Below, one piece after another: positions 5,501-35,419 of a stretch of 42,941 nucleotides of DNA. A program made the translations under genes and the position numbers. Position 1 is the first letter of the stretch, and every line of letters starts with the position of its first letter. The stretch is from Bacteroides sp. (GTDB lineage: Bacteria; Bacteroidota; Bacteroidia; Bacteroidales; Bacteroidaceae): the NCBI GenBank assembly GCA_017621035.1, contig JAGATY010000085.1, forward strand, positions 1 to 42,941, read 5' to 3'. The notes under the pieces were generated by a model. That model saw nothing but the letters and a program-made list of their open reading frames with translations, had not been told where the DNA came from and ran no database searches.

Positions 5501-6524
5501 TCAGCCCCATGGGATAGAGCAGCAACTCTCTCATATCCTTTGTGAAAAGAACATTGTCTTGTACCACCAGGTTTGTGCTTGCCTCATCTACTGTAATGGA
5601 AGTAATGGGGCACGAAGCAAATACTCTAAGACCCAGTTCTGCCACATTCGCCGGAAAATGCACTGAAGTCAGACCTGTATAGGCAAATGCCTGTTCCTCT
5701 AAAGTAACCAATGACTGCGGCAGAGTAACTGATGTCATTCGACAATCTCGAGCTGCACCAACAGCTATACATTTTGTACCTTCAGGAATAGCCAGTACTT
5801 CTCTCTCTTTATGAGAAACCAGGTAAAGAGTAGAAAGATCCTTGCTGTAAAGTGAACCGTCGTAAGCTGTGTAATAAGCATTCTCTTCATCCACTGTAAA
5901 CTCCTGTATGCTATGACTGCTGAGTGTTCCAAAACTCTTTATTGCTTTAGGTAGGTGAAGGGTAGTAATCCTATGACACCCGTTCAGAGCCAACATATCA
6001 ATAGTTTCCAATGTAGAGGGGAAGGTTATAGATGTTAAACTAGTATAGGCTAAAGCCCCCGTTTCAATAGTCAACAATCCCTCCGGTAGCGTGATGCTAT
6101 TCAATGTATTTATACTCGCGAAAGCATATTTCCCAATAGAAGTAATGCCCTTGGGAAGCACTATGGATTGCAAAGGTGCTACATACTCTTCATCTGATGT
6201 TGGCTTATAAAGCAAGCGTTCGGGAATGTTGTGTCCCGTAGTCTTATACTCTCCATAATAGGCATCTCCTCCGGCTACAATCTCTACATTCAGCATATCC
6301 AGCTTGGTGAGGGCAGCCATCTGGCGGATGAAGATAAAGTCTGTACCGTTCAGCTGTCCGGAAAGGGTAAGTTCTGTAATCGTGCTCTTCTTGTCACCGA
6401 CCAGGGTAGAGAGCGTTCCGGCTGTGGTTACGGTGTAGCTCTCTGCCAGAGCAGGCACTGCAGCCAGCAGCACACAGAGTGCTGCAAGCCACCGTTTGAT
6501 TGTTCTCATGCTATGTTGTTTCAT
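2535..6524 (-). CDS. BspA-like leucine-rich repeat (LRR_5) surface protein
   Basis: A 1329-residue secreted protein. Signal peptide: MKQHSMRTIKRW then a hydrophobic core ending AVPALA. The first ATG is supported by AAAGGAG 9 bases upstream. The body is LRR_5/BspA-type repeats (units such as LNSITLPEGLLTIETGAL and LKRVTIPGNVTSLGGHVF). Three copies of a separate module, T(A/P)GTLxTLLG...SGxLNGTD...LDM...IVAGG, start near residues 33, 502 and 690, each heading an LRR block. From about residue 1000 the protein is non-LRR, and it ends in a beta-sandwich tail (LYDATGRTIRHLQLQEGLN...GFYFMEGRKVLI) that resembles T9SS type A sorting domains and related C-terminal domains of Bacteroidales. Family members bind host or matrix proteins in some species; the ligand here is unknown. 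Last gene of the three-gene operon, 17 bases after the Fn3 lipoprotein. Confidence 0.9.
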   Translation of the reverse strand: MKQHSMRTIKRWLAALCVLLAAVPALAESYTVTTAGTLSTLVGDKKSTITELTLSGQLNGTDFIFIRQMAALTKLDMLNVEIVAGGDAYYGEYKTTGHNIPERLLYKPTSDEEYVAPLQSIVLPKGITSIGKYAFASINTLNSITLPEGLLTIETGALAYTSLTSITFPSTLETIDMLALNGCHRITTLHLPKAIKSFGTLSSHSIQEFTVDEENAYYTAYDGSLYSKDLSTLYLVSHKEREVLAIPEGTKCIAVGAARDCRMTSVTLPQSLVTLEEQAFAYTGLTSVHFPANVAELGLRVFASCPITSITVDEASTNLVVQDNVLFTKDMRELLLYPMGLTAESYAIPEGVTTLCWGAFEQVSSLKQLTLPYSLRKIDKWAVNALHALESVTIPPLCTEIGLQAFFNCKGLKRVTIPGNVTSLGGHVFQACTSITEVHCNSKTPYNIDNTFFELDYANCKLYVPTGTSEAYRAAENWSNFINIEEEAVADVSNGEADILMETAGTLATLLGESVAGLTKLTVSGPINGDDVQCFLNIPTLEVLDLRKANIVAGGSYAARNIGLDLPTKKDTITKCMFHGDLESSVLREVYVPETATTVEYAAFALNPQLEVIHLGNVSSFVGGSILDTRSKLKAVYCLSDVFPTYTDDFNFYENPQANATLYVQYGLKDDYEASEQWAGFKEVRELACVKTPGTLSTLLGDNAATDTLLCVAGNLNGTDIKLIRNMTNLRTLDMCLANIVAGGDAYYVNEDGTYPQYTEDNVIGTWMFFSIMTAPLETVYLPNTTVKVADGAFTDNSKIRQVFLNEGLQRIEGSAFNNCVSLQSVAIPASVTDMDFSAFGYWSHQTEVEVAAENPNYASLDGALYSKDMSTIIFYPSKKTGSLTLSVKKVSDFAFTDTHLSSVSFESGLTEMGQFAFYESDISSITLPNTLTRIDVGTFAACFNLQQVTIPESVTQADDIFSYYGPYITVNSIVWNSSASLKKALPYPIHPNTLLYVKAGTEVDDKWQNVIVDGVAEEIVLKDTTMQNGAQQYIPFFAAKPFKAKKISYVRTFNRTEDGTVYESGRGTAGGWQTITLPFTPTRIYHEEQGDLAPFNNDSIMGKPFWLRSLGTEGFVSETSIQPNTPYIIAMPNHATYDAQYNVVGDVWFTAESEEGIAVAATPDVMPAGEGTQFSLHGTYDEIYTEEYGESATPGAYCLNTTVVTLDGTEYPIGSIFSRTIGMAHAFSAYVTSKETTAATRGPLYYSIGGDSGEVTGLEDIVKREDTSLKVYTQGNVLCIVTDRARALSLYDATGRTIRHLQLQEGLNEVTGLAPGFYFMEGRKVLIP

Positions 6525-17415: not shown

Positions 17416-17416
17416 G

Positions 17417-17490
17417 CTCTTCCTCTTGGACTTGAACCAAGGACCCTCTGATTAACAGTCAGATGCTCTAACCGACTGAGCTAAGGAAGA
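17417..17490 (-). tRNA. tRNA-Asn(GTT), distal copy
   Basis: On the minus strand TCTTCCT (17490-17484) pairs with AGGAAGA (17424-17418) as a perfect acceptor stem, with discriminator G at 17417. D arm GCTC-AGTCGGTTA-GAGC, anticodon arm TCTGA-CTGTTAA-TCAGA with anticodon GTT, T arm CTTGG-TTCAAGT-CCAAG. CCA is not encoded. Identical to the copy at 17515-17588. Confidence 0.97.
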
Positions 17491-17514
17491 ATGTTGCATT
17501 TAAGTTTCTCTTCG

Positions 17515-17588
17515 CTCTTCCTCTTGGACTTGAACCAAGGACCCTCTGATTAACAGTCAGATGCTCTAACCGACTGAGCTAAGGAAGA
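17515..17588 (-). tRNA. tRNA-Asn(GTT), promoter-proximal copy
   Basis: Identical in sequence and fold to the copy at 17417-17490, offset by exactly 98 bases. The identical block spans 82 bases (17416-17497 and 17514-17595), slightly beyond the tRNA on both sides, which points to a tandem duplication. The spacer is 24 bases, so both probably come from one transcript started at 17614-17621. Confidence 0.97.
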
Positions 17589-20348: not shown

Positions 20349-20407
20349 CACACGCTCCATCAGGATAAGTTTTCCATCTCTCTGTTGCACAATGATGTTT
20401 AAAACAC

Positions 20408-20415
20408 TAACTTTG
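20408..20415 (+). promoter_or_regulatory. -7 box of the acyltransferase gene
   Basis: TAACTTTG, 54 bases before the ATG at 20470. The longer frame starting at 20392 would begin before this promoter, so I use 20470. Confidence 0.6.
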
Positions 20416-20469
20416 TGCACGAAACTTCATGTCATTCAGTGGCATGAGCAGATTGCAAAAGTCAGACGT

Positions 20470-21384
20470 ATGAACAAAATCATTTACGCTATATTGTTTG
20501 CCCTAGGTTACACGGTATCACTGTTGCCTCTACGGGTACTCTATCTCTTGTCCGACCTTTCTTATTATCCTTTCTATTACCTTATTCGTTACCGACGCAA
20601 CGTAGTACGCCAGAATCTAGTGGAGTGCTTCCCTGAAAAGTCGGAAGCTGAGATTATCGGTATCGAGCGTAACTTTTACCACTTCCTCTGTGACTATTTT
20701 GCTGAGACAATCAAGCTATTCTCTATGAGTCGGCGTGAGATTCAACGTCGCATGACCTTCAGCGGCCTGGATAAGGTTAAGGAGATTCTGAAGACACAAG
20801 ATGTTGTTCTCTACATGGGACACTACTGCAACTGGGAGTGGGTAACCTCTTTCCCATTGCACATGCAGGATGTAGATGTAGTTTCCGGACAAATCTACCA
20901 CCGCCTGCGTAACGAAGTGTCCGACCGTCTGTTCCTACACATGCGTAGCCGTTACGATGCTACCAGCATAGAGATGCACCGCGCCCTGCGCCGACTGGTA
21001 AGCATGAAGAAAGAGAAGAAACGTTTCATTGTTGGCTTCATCACTGACCAAGGTCCCAAGTGGTGGAACTATGTCAAGATGTGGACACCTTTCTTAAACC
21101 ATCAAACATCCTTCATCGTAGGAGCAGAAGGTATAGCCAAGATTACCGATGCTGCTGTAGTCTATCTAGATATGCAGCGGGTAAAACGCGGACACTATCA
21201 TGGTGAATTTATCCTACTGACCGAACACCCCAAACAAATGCCCGACTATGAAATCACTGTGGCCTATGCCAACATGCTGGAGGCCTCCATTCGTCGTGCT
21301 CCACAATACTGGCTCTGGAGCCACAAACGCTGGAAACGTACCTACGAGGAGTATCTGCAGCGGGTGAAAGAGGGGCTGATGTAA
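20470..21384 (+). CDS. Lipid A biosynthesis acyltransferase (LpxL/HtrB family)
   Basis: 304 residues from ATG 20470. Inner-membrane enzyme with one N-terminal hydrophobic segment (IIYAILFALGYTVSLLPLRVLYLLSDL). The HX4E catalytic motif is in YMGHYCNWEWVTS (His-Tyr-Cys-Asn-Trp-Glu). Further family features are FITDQGPKWWNYVKMWTPFLN and a C-terminal WLWSHKRWKR. It adds a secondary acyl chain to lipid A. Only one such gene is in the window. The lipopolysaccharide-kinase-like gene follows by 22 bases, forming a lipid A/core pair. Confidence 0.92.
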   Translation: MNKIIYAILFALGYTVSLLPLRVLYLLSDLSYYPFYYLIRYRRNVVRQNLVECFPEKSEAEIIGIERNFYHFLCDYFAETIKLFSMSRREIQRRMTFSGLDKVKEILKTQDVVLYMGHYCNWEWVTSFPLHMQDVDVVSGQIYHRLRNEVSDRLFLHMRSRYDATSIEMHRALRRLVSMKKEKKRFIVGFITDQGPKWWNYVKMWTPFLNHQTSFIVGAEGIAKITDAAVVYLDMQRVKRGHYHGEFILLTEHPKQMPDYEITVAYANMLEASIRRAPQYWLWSHKRWKRTYEEYLQRVKEGLM

Positions 21385-21406: not shown

Positions 21407-22156
21407 ATGAAATTCAGAATAAAGATTGGCGATGGCTTTGACCATCTGCACACAAATATAGAAGAAATTCCTGCTCGGTTTGAATCTGAGGGGCACACCA
21501 TTCATGCCGGCCGTAATGTAATAAAGGTGATGGAAATCAACGGTATGGAGGTTAACGTAAAGCGTTACCGTATTCCTTCTCTCTTTAATAAAATAGTCTA
21601 CACGGTTTTGCGTAAGTCCAAAGGATTGCGTGCTTTCCTCTATCCTAGTATTCTTCTAGAGAAAGGTTTTGAAACCCCACGTCCCATAGCCTACATCGAG
21701 GAGCGTAAAAACGGTTTGATTCATTACTCTTATTTTGTCAGTACCCAGTGTCCCTATACACGAAACTTCTATGAATTTGGCGATGCCGACATCAACGATT
21801 GCAAAGATGTTGTAGAGGCTTTTGCACGTTACACAGCTCGGTTACATGAAAACGGTATCTTGCATCACGACTACTCCCCCGGTAATATCCTATTTGAAAA
21901 GCAGGAAGGCGAATACCATTTCTCACTAATAGACATTAACCGCATGTCTTTCTGCAAAGTAAACATTAAGAAAGGATGCGCTAACTTTGCTCGTCTATGG
22001 GGGCAAAAAGCTTTCTTCATTCATTTGGCAAGAACCTATGCCCAAGCACGTGGTGCTGACGAATCTTTCTGTATAGAGTATCTTCTCCAACAGCGTAGTA
22101 AATTCTGGTCACGTTACCGTAAGCGACACGAATTAAAGTTCAATCTGGAGTTATAA
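21407..22156 (+). CDS. Lipopolysaccharide kinase (WaaP/Kdo-kinase/InaA family)
   Basis: 249 residues with a protein-kinase-like fold. The catalytic loop is ENGILHHDYSPGNILFE (HxDxxxxNI form), followed by a metal-binding Asp in HFSLIDINRMSF. The N-terminal lobe carries KRYRIPS as the probable ATP-lysine region. The family phosphorylates Kdo or heptose of the inner LPS core. In Bacteroides a phosphorylated Kdo is part of the LOS inner core, which fits its place after the lipid A acyltransferase. The C-terminal tail is Lys/Arg-rich (SKFWSRYRKRHELKF). Confidence 0.88.
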   Translation: MKFRIKIGDGFDHLHTNIEEIPARFESEGHTIHAGRNVIKVMEINGMEVNVKRYRIPSLFNKIVYTVLRKSKGLRAFLYPSILLEKGFETPRPIAYIEERKNGLIHYSYFVSTQCPYTRNFYEFGDADINDCKDVVEAFARYTARLHENGILHHDYSPGNILFEKQEGEYHFSLIDINRMSFCKVNIKKGCANFARLWGQKAFFIHLARTYAQARGADESFCIEYLLQQRSKFWSRYRKRHELKFNLEL

Positions 22157-22241: not shown

Positions 22242-23807
22242 TTACTGCTTCTCCACTTTAGCAGCAGAGCTCCAAGCAGTGGCACGACTACAGTGAGCGA
22301 TGTAGTACGCTTCCTCCTCCGACAAAGCCTTTGAGTCCATGTACCACGGCAAGTGTTTTAACCGGTAAGGGGCTGCTGTACGATAGGCCTCCACAGCCCT
22401 GCTACGACTCAGACCTACACGGGGGCGATACAAAGCAAATGTTGTATCAACAGGAGCACGAAACAGAGAGTCCTCATTCTCCTCTTTGTAGAAACGACTC
22501 TCCCACTCTATCACTTTACTCTTCTGAGCATAACAATCAGGCAAATCATCAATGCGTAACGAAAGCCCGATTTTAGCTGCACACTTATACTTATCTTTCA
22601 AGAGATGCAACAATCGGTCAACCACATCATCGGGACAAGCCTCATCCAGCACAACATCCGAATCCGTATAAATATAGTAATCCTTGCAGAAGCGGTGTCT
22701 TACGTCCGATGCTTTCCACAAAGCCTTAAAGCCAACATTTCGGTGCAAATAGATTACCTCATAAGGTGTCTGCTTGTAGTAGTCGAGCAAAGGAGGATAA
22801 GTACTGTCGTTATCCAAAATATAAATATTGCGAAGCCCTCTCTTTTCCAACGAGGCAATAAGCTGCCGGAGGGTTGTCAAGCGATTGAAGTTATTGATAA
22901 CGATAGGAATATCCTTGCCCGACTCGATATGTGAAGGACTCATAAGTTCCAACAGACGAAACCAATAAGCCTTCAATCTCGCACTACAGCTCTTTAGCAA
23001 AGGAACTTTGCACGCCCCCACCCCAAAGATAATGGGGAACCAAAACTTCTTCATCCGCTTTTTGTACCAAGAGTGACAACCGAAAGGAAGTGTCCCACCG
23101 GTCTGTTTATAGCAATAGGCCGGGTGCTTATCAAAACTGAAGTAGAAAGCCTCCTTGTAATCAGGATAAGTAAAGTTCATGCCGTGCTGGTTTACCTCTA
23201 TGGAGAAGAAGACATCCTCATTATAAAGATGGTGACCGGGATGTTGAAGATACTCTTGTACCACCTCTTTCAGTTGTTGAGTTGCCCGCAGATGTGCACT
23301 AACCTTGCGTAACGACAGCCCGCCATTACCCACTTTATTGGCCGTAACCTGTGAGTTAGGCCGATGCAACAACCTGCAATACTGACGCTTTACCCAAGAA
23401 GCCAACCGAAACAACGGGAAGTCATAAATGGGACGGCGAGGCCAAGGAGCACCCACATAGTCATACCCCTTGCTGCACCACTCTTTCAGTTCATCCCGAA
23501 AAATGAAAGCATCCAGCTGGCAAATCAAGATATACTCGCAGTCAGAGAAACGCTCGTAAAACTCCGGCGACATCATCAACCTGTTATACCCCCGAATACC
23601 CCGGAAGTACTCGTCATCAAACGCCTCTACCTCCAGTTTAGGGAACCTCTCCAACAGACCGGACAAATCCAGGCTTCTAGGCTTCACCACCACCAATGGA
23701 TAGTTCTGCAACAGCTGATAGTTACGGCATAACGATACCTCCTCAAAGCCTTTCAGCTCAGTACTATAGATAGGAATCACTACTTTTACGGGAGTTGGTG
23801 CAGTCAT
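22242..23807 (-). CDS. Two-domain glycosyltransferase: DUF5672 fused to a GT-A (GT2-like) domain
   Basis: 521 residues. Residues 1-270 match the DUF5672 type (VKVVIPIYSTELKGFEEVSLCRNYQLL..., ILICQLDAFIFRDELKEWCSKGYDYVGAPW, TANKVGNGGLSLRKVS, NEDVFFSIE). A basic/hydrophobic linker (about 250-295) leads to a GT-A domain: IPIVINNFNRLTTLRQLIASLEKRG, NIYILDNDSTYPPLLDYY, then the metal-binding YIYTDSDVVLDE. The two enzymes are usually separate proteins, so the fusion suggests two consecutive sugar transfers. It is convergent with the Kdo-kinase-like gene. A glycan role is inferred. Confidence 0.85.
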   Translation of the reverse strand: MTAPTPVKVVIPIYSTELKGFEEVSLCRNYQLLQNYPLVVVKPRSLDLSGLLERFPKLEVEAFDDEYFRGIRGYNRLMMSPEFYERFSDCEYILICQLDAFIFRDELKEWCSKGYDYVGAPWPRRPIYDFPLFRLASWVKRQYCRLLHRPNSQVTANKVGNGGLSLRKVSAHLRATQQLKEVVQEYLQHPGHHLYNEDVFFSIEVNQHGMNFTYPDYKEAFYFSFDKHPAYCYKQTGGTLPFGCHSWYKKRMKKFWFPIIFGVGACKVPLLKSCSARLKAYWFRLLELMSPSHIESGKDIPIVINNFNRLTTLRQLIASLEKRGLRNIYILDNDSTYPPLLDYYKQTPYEVIYLHRNVGFKALWKASDVRHRFCKDYYIYTDSDVVLDEACPDDVVDRLLHLLKDKYKCAAKIGLSLRIDDLPDCYAQKSKVIEWESRFYKEENEDSLFRAPVDTTFALYRPRVGLSRSRAVEAYRTAAPYRLKHLPWYMDSKALSEEEAYYIAHCSRATAWSSAAKVEKQ

Positions 23808-25956: not shown

Positions 25957-26904
25957 CTAAATCCAGAACTTGTCTGTCTCTCGTTCAATGGTTACTTCAG
26001 AAGAGCAATCTTTGAGCATGTCATATATCTTGCTTGCATACACTACATCATGAAGCCCAAGCCCAATATTGTAGCTCAATATGCGTTCTTCGCCAGACTC
26101 ACGTCCCTTTATTTTTCCTGAAATAGCATCTTGAATCTCTCCAAACTGCTTGAACCGACTGAAATATTTGAACCCACAGACATGAGCCGTATCGTCAGCA
26201 TAGACTTTGTCGAAGAACAAATCACAATTCTGGAATCCACGAGTATGAACAGGAACCACCAGGCAACCTTTTCTGAAGCAGCTATCATCTTCACACAATA
26301 GTCCCTGTGCTTCTGTTATACAACTGATAATTACATCTGATTGCTTTACTAAATCAGGAGCGTTATCACAAACAACAAAAGAGACATTTCGGTAATCTTT
26401 GAAACGTTCCATAAACAGTTCTGCCTGATTTTTGTAACGCAGCAACAGTACATTGTGCATCACTTCCGGCTCGGAATCCAACAGACATAACAAGGTAGCT
26501 CTTCCTGTATTACCCAGACCAAGCAGGCCATAAGTCGTGGCATCGCTCTTACGGAATGTCTGAATAGCCAATGTTGCAACTGCCCCTGTACGCATTGTTG
26601 TAATCCAGTCGGCATCAAACATAGCCAGCAGTTCTCCATTTTGAGAGTTATACAGTAGTATATCACTGCCTAATGCCGGAACTGCTCCCTTAATCCGATG
26701 AACCACTTTTACTCCATAACAATTATAAGGTGAAGGCAATAAGCATGGCATGGTGTTGAAGAAGTCGTTACCTTGTGGATGCAGGCTTATCTTTGCCGGA
26801 AGTTGGGCTGTTTCTTTCAACGAAAAGCTCTCTTTTACCCATTCCACACACGTTGCAGGAGAGATATTCAGTCCCTTGATTTGCTTCTGAGAGATAATCT
26901 TCAT
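25957..26904 (-). CDS. Divergent ornithine cyclodeaminase/mu-crystallin family oxidoreductase
   Basis: 315 residues with the family fold. A substrate-side Lys66 (YGVKVVHRI) and Arg105 (ITTMRTGAVA) are kept, and the NAD(P)-binding GLLGLGNTGRATLLCLLD is clear. The region that in true ornithine cyclodeaminases carries the catalytic Asp (GGDxxGK type) instead reads HTRGFQNCDLFFDKVYADD, so ornithine cyclisation is doubtful. Relatives include alanine dehydrogenase-like and SbnB-like enzymes acting on amino acids or N-substituted amino acids. It overlaps the stop of the fusion gene by ATGA (26901-26904) and is the last gene of the glycan operon. An amino-acid dehydrogenase or imine reductase making a precursor is my inference. 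Confidence 0.85.
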   Translation of the reverse strand: MKIISQKQIKGLNISPATCVEWVKESFSLKETAQLPAKISLHPQGNDFFNTMPCLLPSPYNCYGVKVVHRIKGAVPALGSDILLYNSQNGELLAMFDADWITTMRTGAVATLAIQTFRKSDATTYGLLGLGNTGRATLLCLLDSEPEVMHNVLLLRYKNQAELFMERFKDYRNVSFVVCDNAPDLVKQSDVIISCITEAQGLLCEDDSCFRKGCLVVPVHTRGFQNCDLFFDKVYADDTAHVCGFKYFSRFKQFGEIQDAISGKIKGRESGEERILSYNIGLGLHDVVYASKIYDMLKDCSSEVTIERETDKFWI

Positions 26905-28715
26905 CTTTCCAATTGTTTTAAAGATTCAACAAGTTTGGCGTTATCCTTATGGTCACGAACTGCTATACGCATATACTGTTTCCCGTCAAAGCCACCCTTA
27001 CCGGAACAGTCACGCATCAGAATATTGAATTCCTTCAACATCTTCAGTACCAATCCGTTTGCAGTGAAAGGCGGAAGAACTTCTACCAAGAAGTAGTTGG
27101 CTTGTGAAGGTATCACGCGCAAGAAGCTGATTTGACGCAGTTTCTTCTCAAAGTCTTCACGCTCCTTAATGAACTTATCACAAGCATTCTTGTAATCCTT
27201 TTCATATTTGGTATAAATCTGCATGAAGAATTCACAGAAGGAATTGATGTTCCAAATACTAACCTTTTTCTTGATTTGCGAGATAACATCAACATCGGCA
27301 GAACAAAGAATGCCCAGACGAATGCCGGGGACACCATAGCTCTTACTGATAGACTTCATTACCAACATATGTGGATAGTTCTCTAGTATGTCGTTATGCA
27401 AGAGGGTGTTATTCTCCCAGTCGATACTGAAGTCAACAAAGCTTTCATCCACAATCAACCGGATATTTTTCTTCTCACACCAATCAGCCAGCAGACAGAT
27501 GTCTTTCATGGGAATGAAATTACCCGAAGGGTTGTCCGGATTGATTAGGAGAATATTGTCTGCAGGATTCTTACCAAAGAAATCCATCAAGTCATGAGCC
27601 GTATAACGATACTCATTATTCTGCGGGATGAAGGTAACCAGTGATTCCCGTTCACGACGGTTAGGATACTCTTCAAAAGTGGGGCGGGTAATACCCAACG
27701 TACCGGGAAGTATCTCCATCAGTGCTTTGATTAGTTCAGCTGCCCCATTGCCCGGAACAATGTAATCTTCCTTCACTCCCCAACACTTACTGGCCAGAAG
27801 CGTATTTACTTTCATACCCGAAGGATATTCAGAAAGCAAAGTACGGAAGTTGGCCTGCATCTCATCCACAATCTTAGACCTGCTGAAGTAGGGATTTACC
27901 AAATAACAGAAGTCCAACATCTTGGGAAAGCGCCAATATCCACCGAAACGACCATAGAACTTACGCAGAATATCCTCTTCTTCTGCAAATAGAGCCTCAG
28001 CAATATCAAGGTCTTGTTTATCATCTATTTCATACCACTTCTCATTGGTAATTGGAAGTGCCTTTAAGTCCTTACTATTAAGGAAAGAGATGATGCGAAG
28101 CACATTTTCATAATATTCATTGTTGCCCACCGCCTTAGAGTAGGCATCCAGAAAGGGAACATATTTTGTTTTGCTGAATTCCTTGGAGAACTTATAGATG
28201 TTAACCGTCTTGTAATACTTGTCCGTGTCTTCATAATGAAATGCTGCTTTAGGGACAAAGTTCACAATGTTGTTGTCCTCATCAATACAAACCATAGTGC
28301 CGTCCATCCAGGTTTCATATTTGGCAACAAGGGCAACATTGGGATTGGCATTGTTGATAATTAACGGGAATAAGGAGTCCTCGAATATCAAATCAGATTC
28401 TATCAGAAGCGTATCATCCTTCTGCATCTCCTCTTTCGCCAAAGACAAGGAGTAAATATTGTTGGTTTTGTCATAAATGGGATTCTCAATATATTGAATA
28501 GACAAACCTTCATATTGGTTTCCCAAATACTCTTTGACTTCACGTCCTTTATACCCCACAACAATAATGACTTTCTCTAATGGCTGTTTGGACAATTGCT
28601 TCATCACACGGTCTATCAAAGTAACCCCATTTACTTTAACCATGCACTTGGTGTTTCCCTTTGTCAACTCACCTAAACGTTTGCCCATTCCGGCTGCTAA
28701 GATAATTGCTTGCAT
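26901..28715 (-). CDS. LicC-like nucleotidyltransferase fused to a CobD/HisC-like PLP enzyme
   Basis: 604 residues, two enzymes. Residues 1-240: LicC-type nucleotidyltransferase (MQAIILAAGMGKRLGELTKG, NNIYSLSLAKEE, LLIESDLIFEDS, EKWYEIDDKQDLDIAEAL), a group that mostly uses CTP to activate phosphocholine, phosphoethanolamine-type or phosphonate groups. Residues about 265-600: fold-type I PLP enzyme of the HisC/CobD group (LSEYPSGMKVNTLLASKCWGV, VPGNGAAELIKAL, INPDNPSGN, VDESFVDF), with PLP lysine Lys458 in MKSISKSYGVPGIRLG. CobD-type enzymes decarboxylate O-phospho-threonine or -serine; HisC types transaminate. The fusion could make and cytidylylate a phospho-amino-alcohol for the adjacent LicD. 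The known PntC fusion of phosphonate pathways has a similar first half, but no PepM-type gene is here. Starts 25 bases after licD. Confidence 0.9.
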   Translation of the reverse strand: MQAIILAAGMGKRLGELTKGNTKCMVKVNGVTLIDRVMKQLSKQPLEKVIIVVGYKGREVKEYLGNQYEGLSIQYIENPIYDKTNNIYSLSLAKEEMQKDDTLLIESDLIFEDSLFPLIINNANPNVALVAKYETWMDGTMVCIDEDNNIVNFVPKAAFHYEDTDKYYKTVNIYKFSKEFSKTKYVPFLDAYSKAVGNNEYYENVLRIISFLNSKDLKALPITNEKWYEIDDKQDLDIAEALFAEEEDILRKFYGRFGGYWRFPKMLDFCYLVNPYFSRSKIVDEMQANFRTLLSEYPSGMKVNTLLASKCWGVKEDYIVPGNGAAELIKALMEILPGTLGITRPTFEEYPNRRERESLVTFIPQNNEYRYTAHDLMDFFGKNPADNILLINPDNPSGNFIPMKDICLLADWCEKKNIRLIVDESFVDFSIDWENNTLLHNDILENYPHMLVMKSISKSYGVPGIRLGILCSADVDVISQIKKKVSIWNINSFCEFFMQIYTKYEKDYKNACDKFIKEREDFEKKLRQISFLRVIPSQANYFLVEVLPPFTANGLVLKMLKEFNILMRDCSGKGGFDGKQYMRIAVRDHKDNAKLVESLKQLER

Positions 28716-28740
28716 AATGAATGTTGTGTGTGTTAATAAT

Positions 28741-29622
28741 TCATCGTTTCACGATGTGACTCTTATGTTGATATTCTTTATAGCTTCTTTCTGTATCATA
28801 TTTAAGGATGCCGTGACCGGTGGGAGCCTTAACTCTTTTCATATAGTCCCCGTAATCTGTTCTCAATATGCTATCGTAACCGGCAGGAATGGGAATTTTC
28901 ATATCTTCAAAGAGGCGATATTCAGTAGCGGAATAGGCTGATTTCAAACGAATCTTTGCTCTTATGTTCCATGACAGACAAGACACATATTCTGTATGCT
29001 GAATAGGTGTCTCACGTAAGAGTTCTTCATACGATTTAAAGAACTTGATATCCATTCGCCAACGATTGTAGAGCCACTCAGGAAGTAAATTACAGAATTT
29101 TATACAAACCTTCAGCAGATTCTTCTTCCACTGTAATCTCCTAATAAATTTATATGCCTGCTTAGCCGATTTTGGATAAGCATCTAGAATAAAAATGTCT
29201 ATGAATATTCCTTGATTGTATTTTTCCAGTTTCCCGCTTGGAGGCAGTACCGCTGTTTCGCTATTTCGCAATTGAGCATGCCTATGATTGTAGTGTTTAT
29301 CCGAGTAAATGGTTTGAAAAAAATAGGGATGATTGAACTCTTTATCTGCAATTGAAACAAGCTTATCATAATCTTCTCTGAACATAGACACATCAATGTC
29401 ATCATCCCAGGGTATAAATCCACCCTCACGAACAGCACCAAGCAATGTGCCGGAATCTGCCCAGCACCTCAGTCCATACTTATCACATACTTGTAAGAGC
29501 TTGCGTAACAAATCCATCTCACATGCCCATACCTGTTTCATTTCCTTACTTACCAAGTAGTCACTGCGAATCTCTTCTTCGATTGAGAATGAACTAGTTA
29601 TTTCAAATGGTTTATTGCTCAT
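28741..29622 (-). CDS. licD: LicD-family phosphotransferase
   Basis: 293 residues from ATG 29622. Another ATG at 29628 overlaps the glf stop as ATGA; I prefer 29622 because GGAAG lies 6 bases before it. The LicD core is complete: CWADSGTLLGAVREGGFIPWDDDIDVSM (metal-binding DDDID at the end). LicD proteins move phosphocholine, or related phospho-amino-alcohols, from CDP-activated donors onto glycans or teichoic acids. No choline kinase or choline transporter (LicA, LicB) is nearby; the fusion protein just downstream is the obvious source of a donor. Part of the operon running from 33430 to 25957. Confidence 0.92.
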   Translation of the reverse strand: MSNKPFEITSSFSIEEEIRSDYLVSKEMKQVWACEMDLLRKLLQVCDKYGLRCWADSGTLLGAVREGGFIPWDDDIDVSMFREDYDKLVSIADKEFNHPYFFQTIYSDKHYNHRHAQLRNSETAVLPPSGKLEKYNQGIFIDIFILDAYPKSAKQAYKFIRRLQWKKNLLKVCIKFCNLLPEWLYNRWRMDIKFFKSYEELLRETPIQHTEYVSCLSWNIRAKIRLKSAYSATEYRLFEDMKIPIPAGYDSILRTDYGDYMKRVKAPTGHGILKYDTERSYKEYQHKSHIVKR

Positions 29623-29624
29623 AA

Positions 29625-30737
29625 TCATCTTCCAACTTCTTGTTTCCACAATTTCAATGCAGCCTCAATAGTATCATCCATATCTGCATAGGTATATTGT
29701 GCCAAGCGACCACCGAAAAGTACATTCGGTTGTTGCTGTGCCAATGCCTGATACTGTTGGAACAGGCGTGTATTCCGCTCATCGTTGATAGGATAATAAG
29801 GTTCTTTCCCCTTCTGATAGGTATCCGGATACTCATAAGTAATCACCGTAAAAGGCTGAGATCCAAACTCAAAATGTTTATGCTCGATGACACGAGTATA
29901 TGGAATCTCTCGCTCACAGTAATTTACGACTGCATTGCCCTGAAAGTTATCAGTGTCATCTAAACGTTTATGTTCAAAACGCAAACTGCGATATTCCAGT
30001 TCGCCACAGCAATAATCAAAATATTCATCAATACAGCCTGTGTATAACACTCGTTCCGCCAATGCATCCAAAGAGTTACGTTGAGCTATATAATCTATGC
30101 CTGTTCTTACTTCCACACCTTCCAACAGGGCATCTATCAGTTTTTGATAACCGCCAATGGGAATTCCCTGATAAGGGTCATTGAAATAATTATTATCAAA
30201 AGTAAAACGGAAAGGCAAACGTTTGATAATGAAAGCCGGGAGTTCTGTGGCAGATCGTCCCCACTGCTTTTCGGTATATCCTTTTATCAGGCGGATATAG
30301 ATATCCTCTCCACAAAGCTTCAATGCTTGTTCTTCCAGATTCTTAGGATGTTGTATGGAATCATACTTTCCACGTTGTTCAGCAATCTTTGCCTTTGCCT
30401 CTTCGGGTGTACGGACACCCCACAGCTGATAGAACGTGTTCATGTTAAAGGGCAGATTGTACAGAAAATCCTTATACCTTGCCACCGGCGAGTTGGTATA
30501 ACGATTAAACGTAACAAAACGATTCACATAGTGCCAGATTTCAGGCTTGTCTGTATGAAAAATGTGAGCACCATACTTATGTACATGGATTCCATCAACA
30601 TCTTCACAATAGACATTACCTCCAACAAAGGGGCGTTTATCTATCACCAGACACTTCTTGCCTGTTTTTCGTGCTTCGTGGGCAAACACTGCTCCAAACA
30701 GACCTGCACCAACAATCAGATAATCGTACTCTTTCAT
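29625..30737 (-). CDS. glf: UDP-galactopyranose mutase
   Basis: 370 residues from ATG 30737, which overlaps the upstream stop as ATGA. FAD-binding N-terminus (YDYLIVGAGLFGAVFAHEA, LVIDKRPFVGGNVY) and the mutase signature (VHKYGAHIFHTDKPEIWHYVNRF, YNLPFNMNTFYQLWG, IKGYTEKQWGRSATELP). It converts UDP-galactopyranose to UDP-galactofuranose. The preceding gene looks like a galactofuranosyltransferase, so the pair makes and uses the furanose donor. Confidence 0.96.
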   Translation of the reverse strand: MKEYDYLIVGAGLFGAVFAHEARKTGKKCLVIDKRPFVGGNVYCEDVDGIHVHKYGAHIFHTDKPEIWHYVNRFVTFNRYTNSPVARYKDFLYNLPFNMNTFYQLWGVRTPEEAKAKIAEQRGKYDSIQHPKNLEEQALKLCGEDIYIRLIKGYTEKQWGRSATELPAFIIKRLPFRFTFDNNYFNDPYQGIPIGGYQKLIDALLEGVEVRTGIDYIAQRNSLDALAERVLYTGCIDEYFDYCCGELEYRSLRFEHKRLDDTDNFQGNAVVNYCEREIPYTRVIEHKHFEFGSQPFTVITYEYPDTYQKGKEPYYPINDERNTRLFQQYQALAQQQPNVLFGGRLAQYTYADMDDTIEAALKLWKQEVGR

Positions 30738-31771
30738 GCTTCCTTTTGATTTAATGCCTCTATAGCTATTACCAAAGCCTGCTTGATGAAGCATCCGCTT
30801 GCAATCTTCTGCCCTACCAGATAAGCTTTCTCCCGAATGCGCATATACTCTTCTGTCGACAGATTCTTCAGTTTATCCTCCAGTTCTCGAAGTGAATCTA
30901 CACAAAAACCTACTCCGTTTTCTTCTACAAAAGGAGCCAATGCAGCTTGTTTCCAGATAATTACCGGAAGTCCACAACGCAGATATAAAGAGGTTTTATG
31001 GGGATTATTATACTTCAGATACTCTCCAAAATCGCCGGTACAAGCATCTACAGAAGCCCCATCCCATACCAAGCCGAAGTCTCCTTGTGCCGTAGCTATC
31101 AGACAATCTGAGTTTACAAAGCCCATGTAACGGAAATACTCCTTACCCTTTGCATTATCCAGTTCGAAGCCATTACCATACAAATAAAAGGAATAAGAAT
31201 TTATGTACGTCCCCACTTCATACAAGAATGTATTCTTTTTATAACTCAATCCGCCAGCATACAGCACTTTATAGGGAGGGGTAGGAGTTGCCGGTTGCTG
31301 TACCGGAGTGGAAGAAAGATAATCAAAGATTCCCAATGTACCTACCGGAACGGAACAACCATGTTCCAGCAACCAGTTCCTCATGGATTCATTATGGGCT
31401 ATAATGTAGTCTGCGTGACTCAAACGCTTGATTTCCTGTACATCAGTCAACTTCTTACGACGAAAACTTCCCAAATCATGAATCACCACAATTACTTTTG
31501 CTTTCCTCAAATGTGCCAGCCGACAAACAAACGAGAAATATTTCTTCAGGGGATATTGCAACACCAGATAATCACCGGTATGTAAGCAGAATGGAGCTTT
31601 CAACACGCCCAACAACGTAACCATAAAGGCTACTATCTGATTGGTATAAAGTGTCTGTCTGAGGCCAACATTTCTGAAGCCCATTTCAGACATCACTTGC
31701 TCAATATCCGTCTTTGCTTTATTGCCCGCACCGGACAATCCTTTGTAATTGCGTGATAAATAGCAGTTCAT
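30734..31771 (-). CDS. Glycosyltransferase, galactofuranosyltransferase-like (WbbI type)
   Basis: 345 residues with a GT-B layout. The N-terminal domain has VLQYPLKKYFSFVCRLAHLRKAKVIVVIHDLGSFRR and ADYIIAHNESMRNWLLEHG; the C-terminal nucleotide-sugar domain has YKVLYAGGLSYKKNTFL, DFGLVWDGASVDACTGDFGEYLKYNNPHKTSLYLRCGLPVIIW and a C-terminal helix. The combination of HDLGSFR, GLVWDG and YLKYNNPHK is typical of WbbI-like beta-1,6-galactofuranosyltransferases. Being directly coupled to glf (ATGA overlap) supports galactofuranose as the donor sugar. The acceptor is unknown. Confidence 0.85.
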   Translation of the reverse strand: MNCYLSRNYKGLSGAGNKAKTDIEQVMSEMGFRNVGLRQTLYTNQIVAFMVTLLGVLKAPFCLHTGDYLVLQYPLKKYFSFVCRLAHLRKAKVIVVIHDLGSFRRKKLTDVQEIKRLSHADYIIAHNESMRNWLLEHGCSVPVGTLGIFDYLSSTPVQQPATPTPPYKVLYAGGLSYKKNTFLYEVGTYINSYSFYLYGNGFELDNAKGKEYFRYMGFVNSDCLIATAQGDFGLVWDGASVDACTGDFGEYLKYNNPHKTSLYLRCGLPVIIWKQAALAPFVEENGVGFCVDSLRELEDKLKNLSTEEYMRIREKAYLVGQKIASGCFIKQALVIAIEALNQKEA

Positions 31772-31796
31772 AAGAAAAAGAGAAGTAACAAAAATA

Positions 31797-32828
31797 TTAT
31801 AGTTTGGAAACGATGGTTTCCACTTTCTTCACCACATTTTCCACCTTAATCTCTCTCAAACAAGCAAAGTCCCCACGTAGGCAAGGCTTGTTGCCGAAGA
31901 TAGAACAGGGACGACAAGAGAGTTCCACCTGTACAGCATTGTCTGCTCGCTGGTTCCAGCCCATAAAGCCGGCAAAAGGATGGGTAGCACCCCACACCGA
32001 CACCACCGGGGTAGCAGTCAACGATGCCAGATGCATATTGGCCGAGTCCATGCTAATCATTACATCCAGATGACTCATTAACGCCAACTCACCGGAGAGT
32101 TTCAACCGACCGGCCAAAGAGAGTGTACGAGGATAGCGAGCTGCCCACTTTTCCATGATGCGAGACTCTTCTTTCCCGCCTCCAAACAAGAAGATGCGAT
32201 AGTCCGGATTCTCCGTCAGTCTGCTGATAAGTTCCTCCACCTTCTCTTCGGGAAGTATCTTTCCCCTATGTGCTGCAAAGGGGGCAATGCCTACCCAGTG
32301 GGTAGCGTCAGGTGCTCCGGTTACTTGTTCAAACAGAGAAATATCACCTTTCCCCTCTCCATAGAGGGAACGGAAGAGAGGTGTTACCGGATAACCTAAA
32401 GTACTGAAAACCTTTTCATAGCGTTGGAAAGAGGTGGGTAACTGTTTCAGTTGCTTGTTCTGGGCACGTACCAATGCTTTCTTTTCAGCTCGTCCTTTAT
32501 CGATGTAAGAGACACGCTTTCCACTCAGTCGAAAGAAGGTGCGCAACACCTTGCTACGAAGCACATCATGCAAATCGGCCACAGCCTCAAAGCCCTCCTT
32601 CTTCAGTTCACGATACAAACGCCACAGTCCACCGATGCCTTTGTATTGTTTTAAATCCACTCCTCGGAAGCACACATTCTGCGGCATACTTCCAAAGAGT
32701 GGTTGCATAGAGGGTTTGCTCAGCACCGTTATCTCCAACTCGGGGTACCGAAGTGCCACGCTGTGGATGACCGGCACCGTCATGGCTACATCGCCAAAAG
32801 CAGAAAAGCGGATAGCCAGCAGTTTCAT
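31797..32828 (-). CDS. Glycosyltransferase family 9 (heptosyltransferase-like)
   Basis: 343 residues. GT9 features: LLAIRFSAFGDVAMTVPVIHSV at the N-terminus, VGIAPFAAHRGKILPEEKVEELI, IFLFGGGKEESRIMEKWAAR, then SHLDVMISMDSANMHLASLTATPVVSVWGATHPFAGFMGW. A Cys-rich C-terminal segment (CRPCSIFGNKPCLRGDFACLREI) is seen in many GT9 members. It transfers a heptose or similar sugar to the LPS/LOS core; Bacteroides LOS is not always heptose-containing, so the sugar is open. It overlaps the DUF4254 stop by ATGA (32825-32828). Confidence 0.9.
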   Translation of the reverse strand: MKLLAIRFSAFGDVAMTVPVIHSVALRYPELEITVLSKPSMQPLFGSMPQNVCFRGVDLKQYKGIGGLWRLYRELKKEGFEAVADLHDVLRSKVLRTFFRLSGKRVSYIDKGRAEKKALVRAQNKQLKQLPTSFQRYEKVFSTLGYPVTPLFRSLYGEGKGDISLFEQVTGAPDATHWVGIAPFAAHRGKILPEEKVEELISRLTENPDYRIFLFGGGKEESRIMEKWAARYPRTLSLAGRLKLSGELALMSHLDVMISMDSANMHLASLTATPVVSVWGATHPFAGFMGWNQRADNAVQVELSCRPCSIFGNKPCLRGDFACLREIKVENVVKKVETIVSKL

Positions 32829-33430
32829 TTCTTGCCGTAGAGCACCGGATTCAGAGCCGGGTCGTTGTACATCTTCATCTGCTTGTACACTTTCATGTAC
32901 TTGCGACCGGCCTCAATGTCTTCAATCAGCTGTTCGATGGCAGTAGAGAGGTCTTTTTGTTGTTCTAGCAAGATGTTCAACTTTGTTTCACACTGTGCAT
33001 GATGCTCGGGAGTGGTATCGGTACGTTCTACCTCCTGACGCATGTGATAAATCTTCAGGGCCAGAATAGAGAGACGGTCGATAGCCCATGCCGGACTTTC
33101 TGTATTGATAACAGCACCGGCCTGAATGGTCACGTCTTTATACTTATCCAAGAAATAGCTATCAATCAGCTCCACCAAGTCTGTACGGTCTTGGTTAGAC
33201 TTATCAATACGACGTTTCAGTGTCAACGCCTCCACCGGATCGATGTTCGGGTCACGAATGATGTCTTCAAAGTGCCATTGCACGGTATCAATCCAGTTTT
33301 TCAGATAAAGATAGTATTCGATACTCTTCAACGGATAAGGGTTCTGAATAGGAGTATCCACGTTATCTGTCTTATGATATTCAAGGATAGACTCCACAAA
33401 GATGCGATTGCAAGTTTCAGTAAAGTTCAT
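32825..33430 (-). CDS. DUF4254 protein
   Basis: 201 residues, soluble, highly helical, with no signal peptide or membrane segment. Family of unknown function, common in Bacteroidetes and often next to GT9 genes. Visible features: CNRIFVESILEYHKTDNVDTPIQNPYP at the N-terminus, a central NTESPAWAIDRLSILALKIYHMRQE, and a Lys-rich C-terminus. As the first gene of the glycan operon with a translationally coupled GT9, it may be a cytosolic partner of glycan assembly; that is inference. Promoter at 33475-33482. Confidence 0.88.
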   Translation of the reverse strand: MNFTETCNRIFVESILEYHKTDNVDTPIQNPYPLKSIEYYLYLKNWIDTVQWHFEDIIRDPNIDPVEALTLKRRIDKSNQDRTDLVELIDSYFLDKYKDVTIQAGAVINTESPAWAIDRLSILALKIYHMRQEVERTDTTPEHHAQCETKLNILLEQQKDLSTAIEQLIEDIEAGRKYMKVYKQMKMYNDPALNPVLYGKK

Positions 33431-33583: not shown

Positions 33584-35419
33584 ATGAAAGAATTTCTACG
33601 TCTGCTACAGCGCTTCATACCACCCTACAAGAAGTATCTGATAAGCGCCTTGCTGCTCAACTTGGTTTCTGCCATTCTCAACATTTTTTCCTTTGCTCTC
33701 ATCATCCCCATCTTGCAGATTCTTTTCAAGATGGATAATAAAGTATATGAATTTATCCCCTGGGAGAGTGCCGATGTCACCTTGAAAGATATAGTGATAA
33801 ACAACTTCTACTACTACGTCACCCAGCTGATTGCTTCACAAGGAGCATCGCTCACCCTGCTCATCCTAGGAGTATTCTTGGCTGTGATGACATTGCTAAA
33901 GACCCTCTCCTACTTCGCCTCTTCGGCCGTCATGATACCCCTGCGCACCGGCGTAGTGCGTGACATTCGTGCACAAGTATATAATAAGGTATTACATCTG
34001 CCTTTGGGATTCTTCAGTGAAGAGCGCAAAGGAGACATCATTGCCCGTATGAGCGGTGACGTCACCGAAGTAGAGACATCTGTCACCAGTTCACTGGACA
34101 TGCTCATCAAGAACCCCATCCTGATTATCATGTACTTCGGTACACTGATTGCCGTCAGCTGGCAGTTGACACTCTTCACTCTGCTGGTGCTCCCCGTCAT
34201 GGGTTGGCTCATGGGTACTGTAGGTAAAAAGCTGAAGCGCAAGTCACTCTACGCACAAGAGAAGTGGAGCGACACCATGTCACAACTGGAAGAAACCTTG
34301 GGCGGTCTGCGCATCATTAAAGCCTTTGTGGCAGAAGAGAAGATGGAGAAACGCTTCGACCGCTGCAGCAATGAGTATCGCGAAGCCATCAATCGTGTGG
34401 CTACTCGCCAAGCATTGGCACACCCTATGAGTGAATTCCTGGGCACTTGTGTCATCGTCATCGTGCTTTGGTTTGGCGGTACACTCATCCTGAACAACAG
34501 CTCTACCATCGAGGCTCCTTCTTTTATCTACTACCTGGTCATTCTTTACAGCGTCATCAACCCGCTGAAGGAGTTCTCCAAAGCCGGCTACAACATACCC
34601 AAGGGATTGGCCTCTATGGAGCGCATCGACAAAATCTTGCTGGCCGAGAATCCTATCAAGGAGCCTGCACTGCCTAAGCAACCGGCCAAACTGGAGCAGG
34701 AGATAGAGTTCCGCAACGTCTCTTTCAGTTACGACGGTAATCGTCAGGTGCTGAAGCAGGTCAATCTGACTGTACCTCGCGGAAAGACTATCGCTCTGGT
34801 AGGACAATCCGGCTCCGGAAAGTCTACACTAGTAGACCTATTACCACGCTACCACGACATTCAGCAGGGAGAAATCTGTATCGACGGAGTGAACATCAAA
34901 GACTTCCGCATCCAAGACCTACGTTCTCTGATAGGTAACGTCAATCAGGAGGCAATCCTTTTCAACGACACCTTCTTCAACAACATTGCTTTTGGCGTAG
35001 AGAATGTCACCATGGAGCAAGTAGTGGAGGCGGCTAAGATTGCCAATGCACACGACTTCATCCTGGAGAGTGAGCAAGGCTATCAAACTAACATAGGTGA
35101 CCGTGGTGGTAAACTCAGTGGTGGGCAACGTCAGCGTATCAGCATCGCCCGTGCCATTCTGAAGAATCCACCTATCCTTATCCTCGACGAAGCCACCTCA
35201 GCCCTCGACACCGAAAGTGAACGACTGGTACAAGAGGCTCTGGAGCGCCTGATGAAGACACGCACTACCATCGCCATTGCCCACCGCCTCTCTACCATCC
35301 GCAATGCAGACGAAATCTGCGTACTTTACGAAGGCGAGATTGTAGAGCGTGGCACTCACGACGAACTCCTCACCAAAAACGGTTACTACAAGAAGCTGAA
35401 TGATATGCAAACGAAATGA
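33584..35419 (+). CDS. ABC exporter, MsbA-like (permease-ATPase fusion)
   Basis: 611 residues. The transmembrane half has six predicted helices (about 18-45, 75-112, 165-200 and 280-330), with the type I exporter motif EERKGDIIARMSGDVTEVE. The nucleotide-binding half shows Walker A GQSGSGKSTLVDL, signature LSGGQRQRISIARAIL, Walker B ILILDEATSALD and the switch AIAHRLSTIRNADE. MsbA homologues flip lipid A/LPS core across the inner membrane. Its divergent promoter shared with a probable LOS glycan operon supports that role, but other ABC exporters of lipids or peptides look alike. Confidence 0.88.
   Translation: MKEFLRLLQRFIPPYKKYLISALLLNLVSAILNIFSFALIIPILQILFKMDNKVYEFIPWESADVTLKDIVINNFYYYVTQLIASQGASLTLLILGVFLAVMTLLKTLSYFASSAVMIPLRTGVVRDIRAQVYNKVLHLPLGFFSEERKGDIIARMSGDVTEVETSVTSSLDMLIKNPILIIMYFGTLIAVSWQLTLFTLLVLPVMGWLMGTVGKKLKRKSLYAQEKWSDTMSQLEETLGGLRIIKAFVAEEKMEKRFDRCSNEYREAINRVATRQALAHPMSEFLGTCVIVIVLWFGGTLILNNSSTIEAPSFIYYLVILYSVINPLKEFSKAGYNIPKGLASMERIDKILLAENPIKEPALPKQPAKLEQEIEFRNVSFSYDGNRQVLKQVNLTVPRGKTIALVGQSGSGKSTLVDLLPRYHDIQQGEICIDGVNIKDFRIQDLRSLIGNVNQEAILFNDTFFNNIAFGVENVTMEQVVEAAKIANAHDFILESEQGYQTNIGDRGGKLSGGQRQRISIARAILKNPPILILDEATSALDTESERLVQEALERLMKTRTTIAIAHRLSTIRNADEICVLYEGEIVERGTHDELLTKNGYYKKLNDMQTK

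Follow-up and report, generated by a model that had tools for sequence, protein, structure and literature searches.

The locus considered here comprises seven minus-strand genes at positions 25957 to 33430 of a stretch of Bacteroides sp. DNA of 42,941 nucleotides (assembly GCA_017621035.1, contig JAGATY010000085.1), which as a whole is referred to as the window. One of these genes encodes a fusion of a LicC-like cytidylyltransferase with a CobD-like pyridoxal phosphate (PLP) enzyme, and the gene that follows it encodes a dehydrogenase of the OCD family. In most relatives of the fusion this second position, termed the slot, is taken by an unrelated dehydrogenase of the octopine type. The sharing of the slot by the two families suggests that the amino group is further modified and that the product is not plain phosphoethanolamine. 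From the sequences, it is proposed, with about an even chance of being right, that the locus directs the synthesis of a phospho-amino-alcohol tag, N-(1-carboxyethyl)ethanolamine phosphate, and its attachment to a galactofuranose (Galf)-containing lipooligosaccharide (LOS) glycan. An earlier note on this DNA had postulated a self-contained route to a cytidine diphosphate (CDP)-activated phospho-amino-alcohol, and this idea holds in outline. What was called an 'amino-acid-type oxidoreductase' there is the occupant of the slot and the key piece of the locus.

The dehydrogenase slot

A contig scan returned 249 relatives of the fusion, and the best 80, which are 68-84% identical to the window's fusion, were retained with flanks of at most 10 kb on each side. 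These loci were picked by similarity to the window and come mostly from metagenome assemblies of ruminant and horse-gut Bacteroidales and of Fibrobacter. The slot is occupied by a PF02317 octopine-type (opine-type) dehydrogenase in 54 of them and by an OCD protein in 21, and five have neither. No locus among the 80 matched both types anywhere in the fetched DNA, when about 14 would be expected under independent mixing (54 x 21 / 80). The opine-type gene of L033 and the OCD gene of L036 each lie 2.2 kb after the fusion. The loci with neither enzyme are L019, L020 (contig end), L023, L026 and L079, and an opine-dehydrogenase relative is found about 3.5 kb upstream on the other strand in L023 and L026. 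A second sample, with flanks of only 1.5 kb, was drawn from 251 family genomes, of which 58, the window's own included, hold fusion matches at E<=1e-90, and was made up of the 29 best loci that were new. It contained 17 opine, 5 OCD and 7 neither loci and none with both; restricted to the 25 loci less than 99% identical to the first set, these figures are 15, 4, 6 and 0. Two OCD-slot loci (L151 and L157) come from single-contig genomes, and therefore the slot pattern is not only an assembly effect.

The dehydrogenase gene, when called directly adjacent, shares exactly 4 nt with the fusion gene in 35 of 50 opine cases and in 3 of 20 OCD cases. Among the 78 loci in which the gene caller predicted the fusion (it failed to do so in L008 and L016), 45 have a LicD relative no more than four genes away. 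Relatives of the window's GT9 and DUF4254 proteins were absent from the 80 loci (E<=1e-8, more than half of the query, up to 10 kb on each side). The seven-gene operon is thus rejected as a conserved unit, and what recurs is the fusion plus a dehydrogenase. Outside its family the fusion is rare, with 2 of 395 Bacteroidota genomes positive at E<=1e-100, the window's own among them, and a full-length copy is present in 6 of 61 near relatives, again including the window's genome. In genomes G700 and G620 it is matched twice, the two matches overlapping but lying in different open frames, as in a split or broken copy.

Exchange of the slot gene

In a careful tree of 84 fusions (three long-branch rows omitted; 78 rows labelled with the slot state), 21 changes between opine and OCD were counted, at least 18 of them forced by starred branches, with a bootstrap range of 20-21 and a shuffled mean of 20.1. 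On this tree no lineage clustering of the opine versus OCD state was detected, and the slot gene is thus exchanged about as readily as if the ancestry of the neighbouring fusion played no part. A quick tree of 87 rows gave 19 such changes. When 'neither' was included as a third state, the quick tree required 24 changes against a shuffled mean of 28.7, a value as low being reached in 0 of 200 shuffles, because the fusions with neither enzyme sit together.

The exchange is also visible at the DNA level, where seven pairs of opine and OCD loci were compared. In five of them (L028/L030, L008/L009, L053/L060, L083/L084 and L077/L078) the match runs to about the end of the fusion and resumes from about the next gene, leaving about 1 kb of unlike DNA between matching sides whose pieces next to the slot are 77-98% identical. 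The fusions of these five pairs share 90.9-99.5% identity, and L028 and L030 carry the same fusion (98.7%) and LicD (97.0%) alongside unlike dehydrogenases. In L041/L042 the far side matches only at a different distance, and in L046/L061 the match is confined to the fusion side. The opine-type and OCD dehydrogenases of two pairs were aligned with each other and showed no significant similarity (E 0.35 and 1.4). In addition, no residue of the fusion tracked the slot state beyond shuffles, the best mutual information being 0.159 against a mean of maxima of 0.158 and a 95% point of 0.210 in 40 permutations. Therefore, the slot enzyme acts downstream of the fusion, or else the fusion makes no distinction between the two types. 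This unusually frequent, clean and one-for-one exchange of two unrelated enzymes makes the proposal testable in natural near-identical pairs.

The locus in the window

The seven open reading frames described in the earlier note are present, and the Pfam and NCBIfam matches agree with the domains assigned to them. They are listed below with the two halves of the fusion and the genes that define their setting.

32825..33430, minus strand: DUF4254 protein, first gene of the operon (PF14063; 84% identical relative in L126)
31797..32828, minus strand: GT9 heptosyltransferase-like glycosyltransferase (PF01075; 58.5% identical relative in the same place in L126)
30734..31771, minus strand: galactofuranosyltransferase-like enzyme (best model NF007326, 4.8e-78; 262.7 bits, under the cut-off of 420)
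29625..30794, minus strand: Glf, UDP-galactopyranose mutase (likely start 30737; TIGR00031, 406.5 bits, above the cut-off of 303.75)
28741..29649, minus strand: LicD-family phosphotransferase (likely start 29628; PF04991, 145 bits, 5e-42)
26901..28715, minus strand: LicC-like/CobD-like fusion (NTP_transf_3 at residues 3-133, Aminotran_1_2 at residues 315-599)
27981..28715, minus strand: N half of the fusion, about residues 1-245, LicC/PntC-like cytidylyltransferase (best PDB sequences 1jyk LicC and 6pd1 PntC)
26901..27944, minus strand: C half of the fusion, about residues 258-604, CobD-like PLP enzyme, proposed O-phosphoserine decarboxylase (6oux, TIGR01140)
25957..26904, minus strand: OCD/mu-crystallin-family NAD(P)-dependent dehydrogenase, occupant of the swappable slot (PF02423, 83.8 bits)
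33584..35419, plus strand: MsbA-like ATP-binding cassette (ABC) exporter, divergent (PF00664 and PF00005; 83.6% identical relative beside DUF4254-GT9 in L126)
20392..21384, plus strand: lipid A acyltransferase, context (PF03279)
21407..22156, plus strand: 3-deoxy-D-manno-octulosonic acid (Kdo)/lipopolysaccharide kinase-like protein, context (PF06293)

Four junctions are ATGA overlaps (DUF4254/GT9, Galf transferase/Glf, Glf/LicD and fusion/OCD), which settles at the lower figure an earlier count of four or five; the overlaps of Glf and LicD rely on internal ATGs at 30737 and 29628. The other two junctions, GT9/Galf transferase and LicD/fusion, are 25-nt gaps. The same-genus locus L126 presents the ABC transporter, DUF4254 and GT9 genes in the order of the window (84, 84 and 59% identity), and L125 the DUF4254-GT9 pair (85 and 56%). 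In both, this pair is followed by separate LicC-like and PLP genes, with licD additionally in L125. Because of this synteny and of the lipid A, Kdo and MsbA-like genes close by, an LOS-core-type setting is likely, as had been suggested before.

The window's genome (about 2.64 Mb in 93 contigs) is 91.4% complete. As claimed earlier for LicA-type choline genes, no choline kinase (PF01633) was detected in it. A phosphonate locus elsewhere in the genome had been contemplated as a substrate source; no match to PEP (phosphoenolpyruvate) mutase TIGR02320 was found in this genome, and PF13714 reached only 19.1 bits against a cut-off of 31.5. SerC, a source of phosphoserine, is present. A promoter scan predicted 12 promoters, fewer than in shuffles (mean 18.7), and a terminator scan 8, against 5.6 +/- 2.3.

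The fusion protein

The N half matches PF12804 with 51.9 bits, above the cut-off of 27, and the two solved sequences closest to it are LicC (1jyk) and then PntC (6pd1). Its E106 is conserved in 87 of 87 fusions and aligns with PntC Glu104, one of the residues placed near the primary amine of the PntC substrate (PMC6697681). The C half contains an Aminotran_1_2 domain of the CobD-like kind, not class V. Its best NCBIfam model is CobD (TIGR01140, 2.5e-48, versus 5.2e-39 for hisC), and its best PDB sequence is 6oux, a 'threonine phosphate decarboxylase-like enzyme' (2.2e-41; CobD 1.1e-25). K458 is invariant in the 87 fusions, as is R583, and R568 is kept in 78; we take K458 to be the Schiff-base lysine and the two arginines to play the roles of CobD Arg323 (R568) and Arg337 (R583). 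Presumably 6oux is SMUL_1544, an enzyme reported to prefer serine phosphate. The name attached to 6oux is also the one under which SMUL_1544 is described (PMC7755780), and a serine-phosphate decarboxylase, Cj1436, has been reported for the Campylobacter jejuni capsule (PMC12409886). O-phosphoserine decarboxylation is the proposed activity of the C half. The separate PLP proteins of the same-genus loci (L125:6913-9517 and L126:7278-9106) differ from the fusion in scoring higher on hisC than on CobD, and may make a different amine, perhaps serinol phosphate.

The slot enzymes

For the opine type, the Pfam family PF02317 was assigned on one member, L058, whose only PDB matches at E<=0.001 are two octopine dehydrogenases (including 3c7a). 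Octopine dehydrogenase (OcDH) is described as condensing L-arginine with pyruvate and reducing the imine with NADH to D-octopine, and a His-Asp dyad, His212 and an Arg324 sensor are named in it (PMC2924402). The residues aligned with OcDH His212, Arg324 and Asp329 (the last number taken from the alignment and not from the paper) are H, R and D in 57 of 57 opine-type members, as well as in Rhizobium and Serratia relatives. The OCD protein of the window surpasses the PF02423 cut-off of 24 bits, and the curated models nearest to it, PRK08618 and SbnB, are both under cut-off. K66, R105 and D228, presumably functional residues, are conserved in 23 of 23 OCD members. The OCD protein is proposed to be an N-(1-carboxyalkyl) dehydrogenase of ethanolamine or CDP-ethanolamine. 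The two slot enzymes, though unrelated, would then probably furnish the tag with a small acid group of one and the same type, perhaps in mirror-image forms.

Substitution between the two families is also suggested outside fusion loci. In a Serratia plasmid (L169:3970-6140) and in Proteus mirabilis (L168:3955-6137, one fetched of two matching records), an opine-type dehydrogenase 27-29% identical to L058, and annotated as such in Serratia, is found beside SbnA/cysteine-synthase-like and ParB-N genes. Annotations of octopine/nopaline dehydrogenase and of the cysteine synthase family are present in 22 of 50 plasmid records among the matches listed. Staphylococcus has the OCD-family SbnB in that place beside SbnA, and the Serratia and Proteus arrangement resembles a route to diaminopropionate in which an opine dehydrogenase replaces SbnB.

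Neighbours of the fusion in other bacteria

Several neighbours of the fusion are likely users of CDP donors, namely LicD, the family whose scanned member is PF04464 (beside the fusion in 4 loci) and CDP-alcohol phosphatidyltransferase, which in Erwinia adjoins the fusion or its separate parts. Candidate opine dehydrogenases in genomes of the Erwinia order were rejected. In Rhizobium sp. 007, LicC-like, CDP-alcohol transferase, CobD-like and opine-dehydrogenase genes stand in a row. In Gloeothece (L086:5977-9439) the fusion is followed by an S-adenosylmethionine methyltransferase and LicD, a possible case of choline-free phosphocholine synthesis by N-methylation. In Bradyrhizobium and Mesorhizobium, LicC-like and CobD-like genes lie beside aepX; the features listed for these clusters (L167:1747-6221 and L166:2753-6737), an incomplete table, include no phosphonopyruvate decarboxylase, and the rhizobial CobD-like enzyme might decarboxylate phosphonoalanine.

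The Fusobacterium fusion, 49% identical to that of the window, is followed by a DUF1015 gene (L085:7820-8869). The three best PDB matches of its product are free serine kinases, with weak scores (E 0.012) and a shared DGHHR motif, and the fourth is an unnamed protein covering the same stretch (0.037). On this weak match, DUF1015 is a possible serine kinase family.

Proposed pathway and alternatives

The computed evidence consists of the domain make-up, the slot exchange, the conserved catalytic residues and the lack of detected PEP mutase and choline kinase in the 91% complete genome. From it we infer what the four reactions are, in which order they run, which keto acid is used and what serves as acceptor. 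In a first step, the CobD-like half would decarboxylate O-phospho-L-serine to phosphoethanolamine, which the LicC-like half would then join to cytidine monophosphate to give CDP-ethanolamine. In a third step, the slot enzyme, of the OCD family in the window and of the octopine-dehydrogenase family in most relatives, would join an alpha-keto acid, of which pyruvate is the likeliest, to the amine and use NAD(P)H to reduce the resulting imine, yielding the N-(1-carboxyethyl) derivative. Finally, LicD would move N-(1-carboxyethyl)ethanolamine phosphate onto the glycan, which GT9, the Galf transferase and other enzymes would assemble. Because the PLP step needs a free amine, decarboxylation should precede the dehydrogenase reaction. 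The dehydrogenase is placed, tentatively, after activation as well, given that the slot state leaves no trace in the fusion and that fusions are also found on their own. The presence of fusions with neither enzyme beside them would make the third step optional.

The predicted product has a chemical precedent, as N-[(R)-1-carboxyethyl]ethanolamine phosphate is reportedly a residue of Proteus. The name appears in the legend to a figure in a review of Proteus mirabilis and Klebsiella pneumoniae polysaccharides (PMC9630907), and genes for its biosynthesis were not found in the open-licence literature. If the proposal is true, opine-like phosphate decorations, which are known chemically in bacterial polysaccharides, could be traced to biosynthesis from a common serine intermediate, and licD loci of gut bacteria could be read in the absence of choline or phosphonate genes. 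Octopine dehydrogenase makes D-octopine, and OCD-family enzymes are known as L-forming. Hence the slot might act as a single-gene switch of antigen stereochemistry, in which N-(1-carboxyethyl)ethanolamine phosphate is made in the (R) form where the octopine type is present and in the (S) form where the OCD type is, the rest of the pathway staying the same. We put this forward tentatively, as a possibility that falls short of an even chance. If true, recombination would toggle the surface chirality of bacteria living in the gut and rumen, perhaps driven by phages or by immunity.

A number of observations weigh against the proposed pathway. The C half lies under every equivalog cut-off (164.9 versus 290.55 bits for CobD, 134.1 versus 276.55 for hisC) and, to our knowledge, the equivalents of CobD Arg323 and Arg337 do not separate decarboxylases from transaminases. 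The OCD protein is likewise far below every curated cut-off, and for this reason its reaction is deduced from the slot exchange. Neither dehydrogenase adjoins the fusion in 5 of 80 loci, nor within 1.5 kb in 6 of 25, and an adjoining dehydrogenase is also missing in Fusobacterium and in genomes G014 and G022 (the contig of G001 stops after a further 0.6 kb). The rhizobial aepX clusters indicate that the CobD-like/LicC-like pair can also serve phosphonates. The link between DUF1015 and serine kinases is weak and found no direct support in the open-licence literature, and the SbnA-like gene of Serratia is under the SbnA cut-off and barely ahead of cysteine synthase A (238.9 versus 231.1 bits).

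The fusions lacking either dehydrogenase lend themselves to another explanation, in which the fusion and LicD act as proposed to give plain phosphoethanolamine and the slot dehydrogenase has a different role, for instance amino acid supply or tailoring of another part of the glycan. In G014, an open reading frame similar to LicD (31-33% to LicD relatives) directly overlaps the end of the fusion, and the OCD family does include alanine dehydrogenases and imine reductases. This explanation has to face, however, a slot filled by one of two unrelated dehydrogenases, never both, in 75 of 80 loci, the exact 4-nt overlaps with the fusion, the retention of the octopine-type catalytic residues, and the recurrence of an opine dehydrogenase beside such genes in Rhizobium. 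We consider it unlikely.

It is also rather improbable that the pathway runs unchanged with a different amine, either (R)-1-aminopropan-2-yl phosphate from O-phosphothreonine or serinol phosphate from dihydroxyacetone phosphate, as with Cj1437. The former agrees with CobD as the best NCBIfam model of the C half, and the latter with the hisC preference of the split homologues in L125 and L126 and with the reported incorporation of Cj1437-made serinol phosphate into capsule (PMC12409886). Serine is favoured instead by the serine-kinase-like DUF1015 neighbour in Fusobacterium and by the annotation name that 6oux shares with SMUL_1544, presumably the same protein and one with a reported preference for serine phosphate.

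Phosphonate tailoring, with the fusion as a PntC/AEPT equivalent activating 2-aminoethylphosphonate, has the PntC-AEPT fusion of Treponema denticola as a close analogue (PMC6697681) and rhizobial relatives adjoining aepX in its favour, and is nonetheless very improbable and rejected for the window's genome, since no PEP mutase above cut-off was found there. Of 15 genomes or records with the fusion that were searched, the window's genome included, 12 gave no such match, and in the other three, as far as seen, it lies on contigs other than that of the fusion (G014, G022) or outside the 21.8 kb fetched around it (G455, L027). The phosphocholine route is rejected in the same genome for want of a choline kinase.

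Comparison with known systems

The PntC-AEPT fusion Tde1415 of Treponema denticola (PMC6697681) likewise places a LicC-like cytidylyltransferase N-terminal to an amine-making PLP enzyme, and the published amine-contact residue is the one that aligns with the invariant glutamate of the window's fusion. Unlike it, the window's PLP half is CobD-like of class I/II, the other being named class V in the PDB, no PEP mutase is detected in the genome, and the fusion is followed by a dehydrogenase. With the Lic pathway (LicA/B/C/D) the window shares LicC-like activation and the LicD transferase, whereas choline kinase is not detected and the donor probably derives from phosphoserine. SbnB, of staphyloferrin B synthesis, belongs to the OCD family like the window protein and is the redox enzyme for an N-(carboxyalkyl) amine. 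The window protein, however, scores 75.9 bits against the TIGR03944 cut-off of 326.9, and no SbnA-type gene is found among the 19 window proteins scanned. N-(1-amino-1-carboxyl-2-ethyl)-glutamic acid (ACEGA) is named in connection with staphyloferrin B synthesis (PMC12414870).

Cj1436 is described as forming ethanolamine phosphate from serine phosphate for use in a surface glycan, as proposed here (PMC12409886). In that system the amine is joined as a glucuronic acid amide and not as a CDP-activated phosphodiester, and the likeness concerns the described reaction. Octopine dehydrogenase 3c7a (PMC2924402) belongs to PF02317 like the alternative slot occupant, a type found in relatives, the slot of the window being OCD-family. 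The residue named in the Proteus and Klebsiella review (PMC9630907) equals the predicted product in one configuration. As for related surface loci, the LOS cluster of Bacteroides thetaiotaomicron has been published (BT3362-BT3380 type) with some tailoring enzymes called unclear (PMC5850320), and some such Bacteroides loci may allow a similar reading. No paper on Fibrobacter surface chemistry was found in the open-licence literature.

Other features of the window

Adjoining the LOS-type genes, positions 22242-23807 encode a 521-aa DUF5672 protein that is glycosyltransferase-like by eye. Two tandem tRNA-Asn genes with identical anticodon are located at 17416-17588, and a 1329-aa BspA-type leucine-rich-repeat protein is encoded at 2535-6524.

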